Shown: positions 33,318 to 39,037 of the stretch, in pieces
Layout of the letters: each line of letters starts with the position of its first letter
How positions within the stretch are numbered: the stretch's first letter is position 1
Assembly (NCBI GenBank): GCA_026390935.1
Contig: JAPLEZ010000145.1
Span: forward strand, 1 to 39,637
Reading direction: 5' to 3'
Origin: Bacteroidota bacterium
GTDB lineage: Bacteria > Bacteroidota > Bacteroidia > Flavobacteriales_C > GCA-002722245
Length of the DNA stretch: 39,637 nt
Notes under the pieces: model-generated
Told to the model about the DNA's origin: nothing
The model's input: the letters and a program-made list of their open reading frames with translations, nothing else
Databases searched by the model: none
Position numbers and translations under genes: made by a program

Positions 33318-35216
33318 CTAATAAGCCCTCGCATTTCTTCCTTCAACATAATTGATGAAAGATCTGTTCACTACTTTATTACCGCCTGGAGTTGGATAAT
33401 TACCAGTAAAGTACCAGTCACCAGTGTGATTAGGACAAGCTTTGTGTAAGTTTTCTACAGTTTGGTAAACCACCTCCACCTCAGCATTGATTTCCTTTGG
33501 CGTGAGCAATTTTGTGATTCGGGCAGAAATTTCTTCGTCGCTAAACGGCGCGTAAATTTCTTTTACGTAATTCACTATTTGTTCTTTAGGTAATTTCTCT
33601 TGCGCCTTTGATTTTTTGTAAACTTCATCAATCAAAGCTTGTTGCCCTCTTTCTTTCAATAAGGAAATAGCAGCTTGAAAAGCAATGAAATCGCCCAATT
33701 TAGCCATGTCGATACCGTAACAATCTGGATAACGAATTTGCGGCGCTGAGGAAGCAATCACAATTTTGCGTGGTTGCAAACGATCCATGATGCGCAAAAT
33801 ACTTTGCTTTAATGTAGTTCCGCGAACAATGGAATCATCAATTAAAACGAGATTATCAACGCCTTTCTTAACTACACCGTAAGTGGAGTCGTAAACGTGA
33901 GCCACCAAATCATTTCTACCGGTATCGCCGGTGATGAAAGTACGGAGCTTAGCATCTTTGATGGCAATTTTTTCGGTGCGGATAACGATATGCAAAATCT
34001 TATCGAGTTCGGCATCGCTCAACTTGTCTTTCGACAACAATAATTCCTTTTGTTTGGCAATGCGGTGATCACTCAATCCGTCGCGCAATCCGAAGAACGA
34101 AGCTTCTGCAGTATTAGGAATGTAAGAGAAAACAGTGTTTTCAAAATCGTAATCCACTGCTTTAAGTATGCGTGGCGCAAGGTATTTCCCCAAGCGCTTT
34201 CTTTCAACATAAATATCTGCGTCGCTACCTCTAGAAAAATAAATTCTTTCAAACGAACATTCTTTGCGTTCAGTAGGCTCCTTCACCAGTTTTTCACTGA
34301 TGTCGCCATTTTTTTTGATGATCAACGCATGACCAGGTTTAATGGCAGAAATAGATTCTATCGGCACATTGAAAGCCGTTTGAATGGCTGGTCTTTCAGA
34401 TGCAACCACCACTACTTCATCGTCTTTGTAATAAAATGCTGGTCGAATTCCGGCAGGATCTCTCAACACAAAAGCATCGCCATGACCAATCATACCGGCC
34501 ATTGCATACCCTCCGTCGAAATCGCGGGAAGCGTTTTTCATTATCTTTTGAATGTCCAAATGAAGCGCTATTTCATCGGAAATCTGCTGATTGGTTAAGC
34601 CTTGCGCCTTGTATTTATGAAACAATTCCTGATTTTCATTATCGAGAAAATGTCCCATTTTTTCCAACACAGTCACCGTATCCGACTTTTCCTTTGGATG
34701 TTGACCCAAAGTCACCAATCTATCAAACAACTCATCAACATTGGTTAAATTGAAGTTTCCAGCCAATACAAAATTTCGGGTTTTCCAGTTGCTCTGACGC
34801 AAAAAAGGATGACAATATTCAATGCTGTTTCCTCCAAAAGTTCCGTAACGAAGATGACCCAAAAGCAATTCTCCCATAAAAGGAATATTGTTTTTCAACC
34901 ATTCGGGATCACGCAATCTTTCTGGCGCTTTGTCTTGAAGAGCAGCAAAATTGGAATTGATTTTTTCGAAAATGTCTTTGATCGGTTGAGGAGAGTTGGA
35001 GCGGTAGCGGGAGATGTATCTTTTGCCCGGACCGGAATCGAGTTTTATCGTTGCAACACCTGCGCCATCCTGACCACGGTTGTGCTGTTTTTCCATCATC
35101 AGCCACAGTTTATTTAGGCCGTACATGGAACTCCCGTATTTCTCGAGATAGAAGTTTAAAGGCTTTAAAAGGCGTATCAATACGATACCGCACTCGTGTT
35201 TTATTGCTTCACTCAT
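33318..35216 (-). CDS. purF: Long-form amidophosphoribosyltransferase (PurF family)
   Basis: 632 residues, longer than the usual 470-500 of PurF. The N-terminal nucleophile domain begins after a short leader: M-S-E-A-I-K-H-E precedes C9 in HECGIVLIR, the cysteine exposed by processing. NRGQDGAGVA (47-56), GHLRYGT (120-126) and the substrate loop follow. The phosphoribosyltransferase part has the PRPP loop LVLIDDSIVRGTTLK and IASSAPQIRYPDCYGID. An insertion in the glutaminase region and a C-terminal extension of about 100 residues explain the length; this long form is seen in Bacteroidota. The enzyme starts purine synthesis (PRPP plus glutamine to phosphoribosylamine). Whether it is the main or a second copy in this genome is unknown. 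Confidence 0.88.
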   Translation of the reverse strand: MSEAIKHECGIVLIRLLKPLNFYLEKYGSSMYGLNKLWLMMEKQHNRGQDGAGVATIKLDSGPGKRYISRYRSNSPQPIKDIFEKINSNFAALQDKAPERLRDPEWLKNNIPFMGELLLGHLRYGTFGGNSIEYCHPFLRQSNWKTRNFVLAGNFNLTNVDELFDRLVTLGQHPKEKSDTVTVLEKMGHFLDNENQELFHKYKAQGLTNQQISDEIALHLDIQKIMKNASRDFDGGYAMAGMIGHGDAFVLRDPAGIRPAFYYKDDEVVVVASERPAIQTAFNVPIESISAIKPGHALIIKKNGDISEKLVKEPTERKECSFERIYFSRGSDADIYVERKRLGKYLAPRILKAVDYDFENTVFSYIPNTAEASFFGLRDGLSDHRIAKQKELLLSKDKLSDAELDKILHIVIRTEKIAIKDAKLRTFITGDTGRNDLVAHVYDSTYGVVKKGVDNLVLIDDSIVRGTTLKQSILRIMDRLQPRKIVIASSAPQIRYPDCYGIDMAKLGDFIAFQAAISLLKERGQQALIDEVYKKSKAQEKLPKEQIVNYVKEIYAPFSDEEISARITKLLTPKEINAEVEVVYQTVENLHKACPNHTGDWYFTGNYPTPGGNKVVNRSFINYVEGRNARAY

Positions 35217-35273: not shown

Positions 35274-36233
35274 TTAACGCAATTTATTTATCCTCAACGA
35301 CAAGGTATCCATAAAGTCCTTGGAGGCAGCGGAATTCATTATTAATGGACAAATAAAATTCGACTTTTCAACAGCGAGTGGCAATTGTGCAAATACCCAA
35401 TAAGGATTTCCGTACTCTGCTGAAATATTTTTGATTTTTTGCAGCATCTCCAATCGGTTGGGTTGAGTAGTCAATATGCCCGCATAACCTGGCGATTCAT
35501 ACACCACCACTTTAATTCCTTTATCCTGCGCTGCCTGCAAAATTAAACGGAAATACTTTTCACGCTTTGCATCCCACACAAACGATTTGTTTTCAGCGTC
35601 CTCAGGCTTATTTCCGTATTCATCCAATTGCACAAAGTGCAGTGGATTGGCCAAGCTCCTGCTGGAAGGATGAGCTTGATGGCCATTTTTAAAATAGGGC
35701 TCCTTTTTATTCGTAAGCCAATGTTTAACCCCCTGAATGGCAGGGAAAGTCAGCTGATTCCCAAAATAAGTATACCTAAGCAAAGGGACTTTCATCCACG
35801 TAACATATTCTTTATCATGTTCGGCGACAACGGCTTCTACTGTGCTATCCGACAAAAACGCTGCAAAGCGATAAGGATGAAAAGTATTGAATCGGGTATC
35901 AAAAGACTCGGGCGTAGCAAAAAGAAATAAATATTTGGGCGCAGGATTGTTTTTCAAGTACAAGTGCAGATGCAAATAATTATCAGCAAAATCCGAATGA
36001 TTCAAACTAAGATTATAAAAGCTTTTCCCTGTTTTTAGTTGCAGATAAGCAGGATCCATAGTAAATAAAGGCTCGCAGGGACCATCCACTAAAACCTCTG
36101 TCAGAAGCTCCCCACGGGAAACGTGAGTTGCTTTTAAATTTATATTGTGTGAGAGTCCAAATTGAAACAAACGATCCAGTGCAAAAGCAAATGCAACGAT
36201 AATGATAAACGATATGAGTGCTTTTTTTAGCAT
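35274..36233 (-). CDS. SGNH/DltD-like exported protein of the ACP-MBOAT cassette
   Basis: 319 residues from the ATG at 36233, chosen because it overlaps the MBOAT stop by one base (TAATG) and directly starts an N-terminal membrane anchor (about 5-20). The order of elements is that of the SGNH-like partners of MBOAT proteins: a short strand, then a block I position, then DPAYLQLKTGKSFYNLSLNHSD, NNPAPKYLFLFATPESFD and a C-terminal helix. At block I, where G-x-S is usual, the sequence reads VDGPCEPLF (C53). Near the C-terminus, where D-x-x-H is usual, it reads ICPLIMNSAASKDF with no histidine. So catalysis by the classical triad looks absent or changed. Alignment is by eye; homology is likely but not proven. 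Confidence 0.6.
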   Translation of the reverse strand: MLKKALISFIIIVAFAFALDRLFQFGLSHNINLKATHVSRGELLTEVLVDGPCEPLFTMDPAYLQLKTGKSFYNLSLNHSDFADNYLHLHLYLKNNPAPKYLFLFATPESFDTRFNTFHPYRFAAFLSDSTVEAVVAEHDKEYVTWMKVPLLRYTYFGNQLTFPAIQGVKHWLTNKKEPYFKNGHQAHPSSRSLANPLHFVQLDEYGNKPEDAENKSFVWDAKREKYFRLILQAAQDKGIKVVVYESPGYAGILTTQPNRLEMLQKIKNISAEYGNPYWVFAQLPLAVEKSNFICPLIMNSAASKDFMDTLSLRINKLR

Positions 36234-37606
36234 TAAAATCTGGAATAAATAAATTGTTCTCCGTTGCTGAATACACCAAAAACAGTGATCAATAAAACTA
36301 TTGTGACCACCCACGCAATTGAGAATTTTTCACTGTTTGCCTTCGCATTGATTTTATTTTCAAAGAGTAAAAAGACGACTACAAAAATCCACGCAGTCGA
36401 CAGATTATAAAGATCGTTCAAATCGGCGCCTCGTCCGAAAATCGCAACGAATTGTGTAAGCCAGTCTTGGGGCCAAAAAGACGAAGAAAAGACTTCATTC
36501 ATTAGTTTTTTTGATGTTTCAACATCTGGAGAACGAAAAAACAAATTGGCAAAACTCACCGCAAAAATGGTCAGCAAAAAAGCAATCCATTTCGGTACAC
36601 TAAATTTTATCTTTTGGGCAATTAATTCTATGGTGAGATAAGTGATATGGCAGAGGGCCCACAACATAAATGTTAATCCCAACCCATGCCACAATGCCGA
36701 AAAAATAAGGGTGATCACTATTCCTGCAAAGGCTGATAAGAAAGCGTTCTTTCTTAACCAATACGACACCGGATAATACACATAATGGGTAAGCCATTGC
36801 ATCAAAGTGATGTGCCAGCGTCTCCAGAACTGGGTAATTGAAACGGAACGCAAAGGCGTGGAAAAATTCTCAGGAAGTACAATGCCGAACAATCGTGAAA
36901 TTCCAAGAGCCATATCGATGTATCCAGAGAAATCGAAGTACACTTGCAATGTAAAAACGAATCCCGCTACAAGCACTGTAAAACCGCTGTTTACATCGGC
37001 AGTATCAAAAACCGAAACCAGCATTGGCGCTAATTTATCGGCAATAACCAGCTTTTTAAAAGCCCCTAAAATAAAGCGGTTTAATCCGGCGGTAGTATTT
37101 TCTTCTTTATAAACAGGAACAGTCGTTAACGCTTTTTTCATTACCGCGAAAGTCACAATAGGACCGCATAAAATTTTAGGAAAATAAGCAGTAGAAACAA
37201 CATAAGTCAGCGCATTTTCTTCAGGCAAAATTCGTTTAATTTTTACATCAAAGAGATAGCCGATATTTTGCAAACCGTAAAATGACAATCCTAAGGTAAA
37301 GGCGATGGATTCTAACGAAAATGTATTGGCAAAGGCGAAAAATTTGAAGCTAAGCAATTCTGTCAAAATCAAGATTACGCTCAAAATAAATAAGGTGTTT
37401 TTTTGCTTTGTGGCTGCAGCAATTTTCTGTGCCGCATAAAATGTAAACAAACTGTTGAGCAGCAAAAGCGGAATCGCTCTCCACTGAATAAATGCGATGA
37501 AGCCCAAACTGGCAAAGAAAAGTATGATGAGAGGCTGCTTTGTTTTATAAAAAAGATACAGACTGATCCCTACAAACAAAATGAAGTATAGTGCATTTTC
37601 AAGCAT
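36233..37606 (-). CDS. MBOAT-family O-acyltransferase (AlgI/DltB-like)
   Basis: 457 residues from the ATG at 37606, which overlaps the acyl carrier stop (TAATG). About 11-12 membrane helices are visible. Family marks: YFPKILCGPIVTF (141-153), the FDFSGYIDMALGISRLFGI block (224-242), PLRSVSITQFWRRWHITL (251-268) and the catalytic His307 in IFSALWHGLGL. Members move acyl groups across or at the membrane onto alginate, cellulose, teichoic acid or proteins. With an acyl carrier protein before it and an SGNH-like protein after it, the layout resembles DltC-DltB-DltD rather than the alginate system. Acyl group and acceptor are unknown. Confidence 0.93.
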   Translation of the reverse strand: MLENALYFILFVGISLYLFYKTKQPLIILFFASLGFIAFIQWRAIPLLLLNSLFTFYAAQKIAAATKQKNTLFILSVILILTELLSFKFFAFANTFSLESIAFTLGLSFYGLQNIGYLFDVKIKRILPEENALTYVVSTAYFPKILCGPIVTFAVMKKALTTVPVYKEENTTAGLNRFILGAFKKLVIADKLAPMLVSVFDTADVNSGFTVLVAGFVFTLQVYFDFSGYIDMALGISRLFGIVLPENFSTPLRSVSITQFWRRWHITLMQWLTHYVYYPVSYWLRKNAFLSAFAGIVITLIFSALWHGLGLTFMLWALCHITYLTIELIAQKIKFSVPKWIAFLLTIFAVSFANLFFRSPDVETSKKLMNEVFSSSFWPQDWLTQFVAIFGRGADLNDLYNLSTAWIFVVVFLLFENKINAKANSEKFSIAWVVTIVLLITVFGVFSNGEQFIYSRF

Positions 37607-37854
37607 TAAAATCCTGTGATTTTTTTGTGAATGCAATCAACAATATCTCCCAAGGAATAAAAATCAGTGATTTCCAGAAATGAGAATTTTATGGAGAATG
37701 CTGTTTCTATTTTCGACATCAAGGGCAAATGGGAAAAAGAGTTCCATTGCTCCACATCAGCAGCAGAAGTGCTTTCCGAACAAACAAAGTCCTTCAGCTG
37801 AAAAAAATCAGCAATGACCAATCCTGTTTTCTGTAGAATTTCACTTCGTTCCAT
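37606..37854 (-). CDS. Acyl carrier protein-like small protein
   Basis: 82 residues from the ATG at 37854; a longer frame begins at 37917 but would run through the terminator hairpin. It has the four-helix carrier pattern: a first helix (ILQKTGLVIADFFQL), then DVEQWNSFSHLPLMSKIETAFSIKF with Ser39 in WNSF as the probable phosphopantetheine site (usually D-S-L), then EITDFYSLGDIVDCIHKKI. The order 'W-D/N-S-F/L-x-H-L-x-L-x-x-x-I-E' is strongly ACP-like. It is first in a tightly overlapping three-gene cassette with MBOAT and an SGNH-like protein. Confidence 0.85.
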   Translation of the reverse strand: MERSEILQKTGLVIADFFQLKDFVCSESTSAADVEQWNSFSHLPLMSKIETAFSIKFSFLEITDFYSLGDIVDCIHKKITGF

Positions 37855-37924: not shown

Positions 37925-39037
37925 TTACTTTGATTTTTCTAGTGACCAACCCATTGATACGCCAACCGTCCAACCCTCCTTACTTGGAATAGTGTACAAA
38001 TTCACCGGAATATTCAAAGTACCTGAAGTGAAAGTTTTTCCAATGGCAAACACCCATGCACTGGTAATTTGGCTGCTCCCCCTGCTGTCTAAACGTTCTA
38101 CGATATTCTGTTCCGTATCTTTAAAACTGTCCAGATTCTTATCTGCTTCCAAATGCCAATTCTTGTTTTCATCATAAAATCCAGATGCTCTTTTTTGGAT
38201 GTTGAATGTTGGACCGAAACCGAATTCCCATCGTGATTTTTTCAAACGGAATCCATGAATGATAGAAAGAGAAGGGATAAATTTTTGTTGTTCCATACCT
38301 CCAACCAATCCAAAGAATTCAATAAGAGCCATCACATTTCCTGTATTCAAATAACGTGCTTCAGTATGGTAACCAAATTGTGTCATCATTGGTGCCATGT
38401 CAAATCCACCTTTGTTTTTCGGTCGGGACAAGATATTCGAATTTTCTCCTGTAGCGAATGACAAGCCGAAACGAGGACCAGATAAATTCAACTTTCTAAC
38501 GTTAGGTTTTTCAACCAAATCCGCCTCATTCTTCTGAAAAAGATAAAGGTTTTCCAAGGCAGGATTTACCGCTACACCAAACAAAGTCTCCACCGAAAAG
38601 CGAATTAAGGTTTGCAACTCTAAAGGCTCATAAATGTACTCCTTCATCACTGTGCTTTCCTGTGCGCCACTTTTAACATTGTACTGGCGTAAGTTGATGG
38701 CCAACATTCTTCCAATTTTTTCAACTGTACCTGAAACTATAAAGTCGAGGTGGAGTTCTTTTCCTGCTTTAAGCACACAGGATTTACTCATGCAGCCATT
38801 TTTATCGAGACCATTGGCTTTGTAATAATTGTCGATTTCGTAGCGGTCAACGACTTCAAATTTCTGCAGTTTTTCAATTTCAATTCGAACAATGGAGGTT
38901 ATTTCATTTTGAGAAAGTTCGATGCCTTGAACATCGATGTAAGAGACCCCGAGCAGTTCTTTCTGACTGGTTTGGGCAAAAGATTGTGTTCCGAAGAACA
39001 ACGAAGAAATTAATGCGATTTTGTTAAAGTATTTCAT
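37925..39037 (-). CDS. Exported protein with CsgG-like N-terminal domain and beta-rich C-terminal half
   Basis: 370 residues with a signal peptide (1-21, ending GTQSFA). Residues about 28-150 follow the CsgG/LpoB-type fold: LLGVSYIDVQGIELSQNEITSIVRIEIEKLQKFEVVDRYEIDNYY, then GCMSKSCVLKAGKELHLDFIVSGTVEKIGRMLAINLRQYNV, with a C-x-x-x-x-C pair. Residues about 180-370 are strand-rich with aromatic ends (GLSFATG, FEFGFGPTFNIQ-like) and end VSMGWSLEKSK, probably a small outer-membrane barrel or beta-sandwich. The combination suggests an outer-membrane protein of unknown role. Its promoter (TAGTTTTG) is listed separately. Confidence 0.75.
   Translation of the reverse strand: MKYFNKIALISSLFFGTQSFAQTSQKELLGVSYIDVQGIELSQNEITSIVRIEIEKLQKFEVVDRYEIDNYYKANGLDKNGCMSKSCVLKAGKELHLDFIVSGTVEKIGRMLAINLRQYNVKSGAQESTVMKEYIYEPLELQTLIRFSVETLFGVAVNPALENLYLFQKNEADLVEKPNVRKLNLSGPRFGLSFATGENSNILSRPKNKGGFDMAPMMTQFGYHTEARYLNTGNVMALIEFFGLVGGMEQQKFIPSLSIIHGFRLKKSRWEFGFGPTFNIQKRASGFYDENKNWHLEADKNLDSFKDTEQNIVERLDSRGSSQITSAWVFAIGKTFTSGTLNIPVNLYTIPSKEGWTVGVSMGWSLEKSK

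Follow-up and report, generated by a model that had tools for sequence, protein, structure and literature searches.

The window, as we call the whole 39,637-nucleotide stretch analysed here (Flavobacteriales-related Bacteroidota assembly GCA_026390935.1, contig JAPLEZ010000145.1; genome G000 of our set), carries three open reading frames on its minus strand between 35274 and 37854. They encode an acyl carrier protein (ACP; 82 aa, 37606..37854), a DltB-like MBOAT acyltransferase (457 aa, 36233..37606), and a membrane-anchored third protein (319 aa, 35274..36233). Both junctions read TAATG, with one base common to stop and start; the initial annotation had described this overlapping gene set, and the open reading frames lie where it placed them. 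The same one-base overlaps are present in the sister genomes G007 and G009, where, as in the window, a purF-like gene adjoins the trio. Its 632-aa product (33318-35216) scores 126 bits against a purF cut-off of 350; five genomes of this genus have it as a constant neighbour of the MBOAT and third protein. Upstream of the trio, positions 37925-39037 encode a secreted 370-aa protein with a weak LpoB-like match.

The window ACP gave no Pfam match, while its NCBIfam ACP matches were weak but consistent. A PDB sequence search returned the putative ACP 2lml as its best and closest solved relative (E 5e-9); this is GmACP3 of Geobacter, a carrier protein with a probable role in LPS biosynthesis. The phosphopantetheine serine, Ser39 (codon 37738-37740, minus strand), sits in AADVEQWNSFSHL, within a WNS motif, and a motif scan found serine there in each of the 21 ACPs taken from related loci, so that the variability which the initial annotation named as evidence against its proposal did not occur. 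One ACP of this type was found in G000, together with two phosphopantetheinyl transferase genes located away from the trio.

The relationship of the MBOAT to DltB, proposed from the outset, held in each comparison: the protein matched the Pfam MBOAT family (E 1e-25) and, below the cut-off, the NCBIfam DltB family TIGR04091 (E 5e-38), its only solved sequence relatives were DltB, and DltB was its top fold match (Foldseek, E 6e-12). His307 (codon 36686-36688, minus strand) had been placed correctly, and is invariant among 22 aligned MBOATs along with W306, F452, Y454, and F457. The last three belong to a feature missing from the earlier account, the C-terminal hexapeptide FIYSRF (36236..36253, minus strand; Tyr454 at 36245-36247), which fits the FXYXXF motif and falls in a low-confidence region of the structure model. 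A tail of the form F[IV]YxxF ended all 33 MBOATs scanned. Labelling has demonstrated that this hexapeptide is the acyl shuttle of PatA; it has also been described for DltX, there on a microprotein, and its role is taken to extend to every bacterial MBOAT-SGNH pair (PMC12148441). The window MBOAT thus has both the histidine and the C-terminal motif expected of such a relay.

Fold and catalytic positions of the third protein

The AlphaFold model of the third protein (pLDDT 91) matched DltD first in a Foldseek search (6pfx/3bma). By VIA, it aligned with DltD over 253-258 residues (Z 13.8) and with TesA over 163 residues (Z 14.9). Its score against DUF1574 (PF07611), 20.4 bits, falls short of the Pfam gathering cut-off of 29.1. 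An SGNH-fold partner is therefore encoded beside the MBOAT, as in known MBOAT-SGNH relays; the serine that carries the intermediate in such partners is another matter. When 22 close homologues were aligned, every one proved to have GPC in block I, cysteine taking the place of serine (Cys53 in the window; codon 36075..36077, minus strand), and the Asp and His of the block V DxxH are gone from all 22. Nine of nine aligned weaker homologues, an outgroup of SGNH proteins, keep both the serine and a block V H[LMF]N. His79, at the block II oxyanion-hole position (codon 35997..35999, minus strand), is retained in 21 of the 22 Cys-type proteins and replaced by Gln in one; in the aligned Ser-type outgroup this position is mostly Gly. 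Even with the trait columns removed before tree building, the Cys-type third proteins formed one side of their own tree (support 99), as did the MBOATs of Cys-type systems in theirs (100).

The third protein is thus DltD-like in its predicted fold and is not a Ser-His SGNH enzyme, as it lacks both the block I serine and the block V histidine. The description of an exported SGNH-like protein in the initial annotation stands for the fold and fails in the catalytic sense. A plain Ser-type DltD identity was also considered, and was ruled out by the cysteine that the alignment places at the serine position.

The loss of the block V residues throughout the group raises the main rival to any catalytic role: that the third protein is a dead SGNH scaffold, which positions the acceptor or chaperones the MBOAT arm while the acyl group passes from Tyr454 directly to the acceptor, Cys53 being structural. 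This agrees with the published pKa reasoning, by which both hand-overs of the acyl group, from thioester to Tyr and then from Tyr to Ser, are downhill and one from Tyr to Cys is not (PMC12148441), so that a transfer onto Cys53 would be uphill. A dead scaffold, however, need not retain one residue at the nucleophile position, and Cys53 is invariant at exactly that position in proteins whose identity falls to 31%. It is also the sole invariant cysteine among the 22, so the protein has no conserved disulfide for which it could be kept. Weighing these points, we regard the scaffold reading as possible, though we would not expect it to prove correct.

Distribution and gene order of the Cys-type systems

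In a sample of 395 genomes of the class, a profile of the third protein matched 59 (threshold E 1e-5). The strong matches (E below 1e-74) comprised 22 proteins from 21 genomes in six families, and all were Cys type; a phylum-wide sample yielded no additional Cys-type protein, its member G426 being Ser type. Within the host's family, the third protein was found in 9 of 10 genomes, and a ligase profile matched the same nine. The trio itself recurs in G007, in G009, as a second copy in G006, and in G112 of another family. Restriction to a single genome, which the initial annotation had named as grounds for abandoning its proposal, was thus not observed, and the conserved synteny that it had asked for extends across several families.

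In seven homologous loci, an MBOAT and a DltA-type ligase adjoin the third protein, supplying the dedicated adenylating enzyme that the window trio lacks. The order ligase, ACP, MBOAT, Cys protein occurs in L115, L117, L119, L122, L123, and L125, and is the arrangement of families f20, f37, and f77; L118 and L121 have no adjacent ligase. Genus g2 has the system split over three sites, one with the ACP-MBOAT pair, one with the Cys protein, and one with the ligase; even so, all components are retained in four of five genomes, the remaining one being 77% complete. Sister loci in G006 (C15) and G008 (C119) encode the MBOAT and Cys protein with no adjacent ACP, and both genomes also carry a ligase-ACP pair without an MBOAT. 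At L126 (2647-6444), an FkbH-like protein and an ACP lie upstream of a Cys-type MBOAT and third-protein pair, in the ligase's place. Since FkbH replaces the ligase there, the cargo may differ, and the swap suggests a glyceryl- or lactyl-type group in that lineage. An FkbH search of G000 gave no match, but neither did its control anywhere, so the gene could be present.

Among other Gram-negative bacteria, Bordetella and Photorhabdus probably carry dlt/dra loci, although a review examined on this point gave no confirmation. The premise that the usual Gram-negative MBOAT systems do not bring their own ACP found no support, because the same genus has both several other ligase-ACP-MBOAT-SGNH loci and an FkbH-ACP-MBOAT-SGNH locus. 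The former (L072, L074, and L076) have the same kinds of genes in the same order as the Cys systems, with FVYAQF tails and the ACP serine in WTS or WNS; they differ in that the partner has a GTSRA serine and a GNH[LF][ND] block V, and in that their MBOATs fall outside the Cys-type side of the tree. The latter (L070, 6218-10692, in G009) is a further ACP-fed system, in which genes for an FkbH-like protein, an ACP, a Ser-type SGNH protein, and an MBOAT are clustered.

These gene orders bear on whether the ACP is a bystander to an ordinary acetyl-CoA-dependent O-acetylation pair of the PatAB/AlgI type. The window system does resemble PatA-PatB, with the FXYXXF motif fused to the C-terminus of the MBOAT and a separate periplasmic partner of SGNH fold; the characterised MBOAT-SGNH pairs, Dlt excepted, use acyl-CoA (PMC12148441), and the ACP is absent from some sister loci. 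PatAB, however, uses acetyl-CoA and has no ACP, and PatB forms a covalent serine intermediate, whereas the window system has no Ser-His SGNH partner. Moreover, ACP and adenylating ligase share an operon in several families, and the window MBOAT is nearest DltB, whose donor is an ACP. We therefore judge the acetyl-CoA reading very improbable.

Ligase classes and the cargo

The pairing of a ligase gene with the ACP gene, a hallmark of Dlt that L117, L123, and L125, among other related operons, display, does not extend to the window trio. The absence of a DltA-like ligase from the trio was thus reported correctly at first, but the genome has one: an intact, orphan DltA-like ligase is encoded on a different contig (G000:C78:48558-50033; L134 6559-8034). 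It scores 719 bits against the family profile, retains FCGEAL and NTYGPTEAT, counts DltA structures among its best solved matches, and is the only ligase of the searched profile in G000. Its pocket code, with residues placed by motif and not by GrsA alignment (as for all codes given here), is DFLYLCTVF, of the gyrB-locus class. Ligases of this class accompany Ser-type SGNH operons in sister genomes, where the equivalent of the C78 locus is ligase-ACP-MBOAT-SGNH; the counterpart there has its own ACP, and none accompanies the C78 ligase in G000.

The code DVFSFSCIV is shared by the operonic f37 ligases, the unlinked g2 ligases, and the ligase at G006:C22, and those of f20 are near-identical; a profile search of G000 found no ligase of this class. 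Amino-acid adenylation domains and DltA are what the ligases of the operons resemble, and the DltA family scores of the related ligases lie below curated cut-offs. A leading Asp in the pocket code of an adenylation domain points to an alpha-amino acid, and that of DVFSFSCIV accordingly suggests such a substrate, if the motif-based placement is right.

The C78 ligase could load the window ACP in trans. The pairing is circumstantial, because the ligase has the pocket code DFLYLCTVF and is not of the DVFSFSCIV class. The orphan ligase of G000 and the unmatched parts in G006 and G008 are complementary, which suggests loading in trans.

The system might instead carry out true Dlt-like D-alanylation of a Gram-negative surface polymer, with the cysteine acting as the DltD serine and an ester as product. 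The C78 ligase carries the FCGE cysteine, a residue involved in the selectivity of DltA for D-Ala (PMC9338922), and its NTYGPTEAT motif and DltA-like structural matches point the same way. The different pocket of the Cys-system ligases in other families, their sub-threshold DltA scores, and the FkbH of L126 argue against this, and we consider D-alanylation improbable.

A proposed relay

We lean, by a modest degree, towards an ACP-dependent, Dlt-like relay with a Tyr shuttle and a Cys-type, DltD-fold terminal protein; the group passed is probably a small acyl, likely an aminoacyl. The Dlt-like ACP-to-surface relay of the initial annotation is thereby largely upheld in its architecture (DltB-like MBOAT, DltD-like fold, ACP serine, and synteny) but misses the main point, a terminal protein that is no Ser-type SGNH enzyme. 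The system is like DltABCD(X) in its ACP donor, its DltB-like MBOAT with catalytic His, its Tyr shuttle hexapeptide, its membrane-anchored partner of DltD fold, and the DltA-like ligase in the genome. It differs in that the hexapeptide is fused to the MBOAT, with no DltX microprotein seen, that the ligase is on another contig, that the host is Gram-negative, and that the DltD-like protein lacks the block V His and carries Cys where DltD has Ser.

From conservation, co-inheritance, folds, and motifs, we infer the following catalytic steps. The C78 ligase would activate a small amino acid and load it onto the phosphopantetheine of Ser39. The MBOAT, through His307, would then take the acyl group off the ACP thioester and place it, at the periplasmic face, on Tyr454 in the enzyme's own FIYSRF arm, a step well grounded by analogy with the characterised shuttles. 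From the arm, the group might pass to Cys53 of the partner, perhaps with His79 as base; this step is the least certain. Finally, the partner would hand the group to an envelope acceptor. As the step from Tyr ester to Cys thioester would be uphill unless drained fast, the chain would become favourable if the acceptor were an amine and the product an amide. The fullest form of this proposal, in which the third protein is an acyltransferase that uses a cysteine nucleophile on an SGNH fold, with Cys53-His79 replacing Ser-His-Asp, an acyl-thioester formed from the Tyr shuttle, and the aminoacyl group delivered to an envelope amine as an amide and not an ester, strikes us as rather unlikely.

A literature search of partial coverage returned no paper on an MBOAT with both an ACP and an SGNH protein, none on an SGNH protein with a cysteine nucleophile, and no description in Gram-negative bacteria of Dlt-like relays that an ACP feeds and whose loading modules are interchangeable, such as the two ligase classes and FkbH seen here. 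With cysteine instead of serine and the His base missing, the conserved branch described here departs from the downhill rule of ACP or CoA thioester to Tyr to Ser, and offers a direct test of it. The relay would point to a new envelope modification.

Two further loci have neighbours of note. At L077 (7099-10011), a 970-aa protein whose C-terminal part contains an MBOAT domain, and whose tail reads FIYFQF, adjoins an SGNH-like protein of 471 aa. In genus g2 (L113, 7147-9777), the unlinked Cys protein adjoins a 541-aa Big_5 (Ig-like) protein, a possible substrate or partner.
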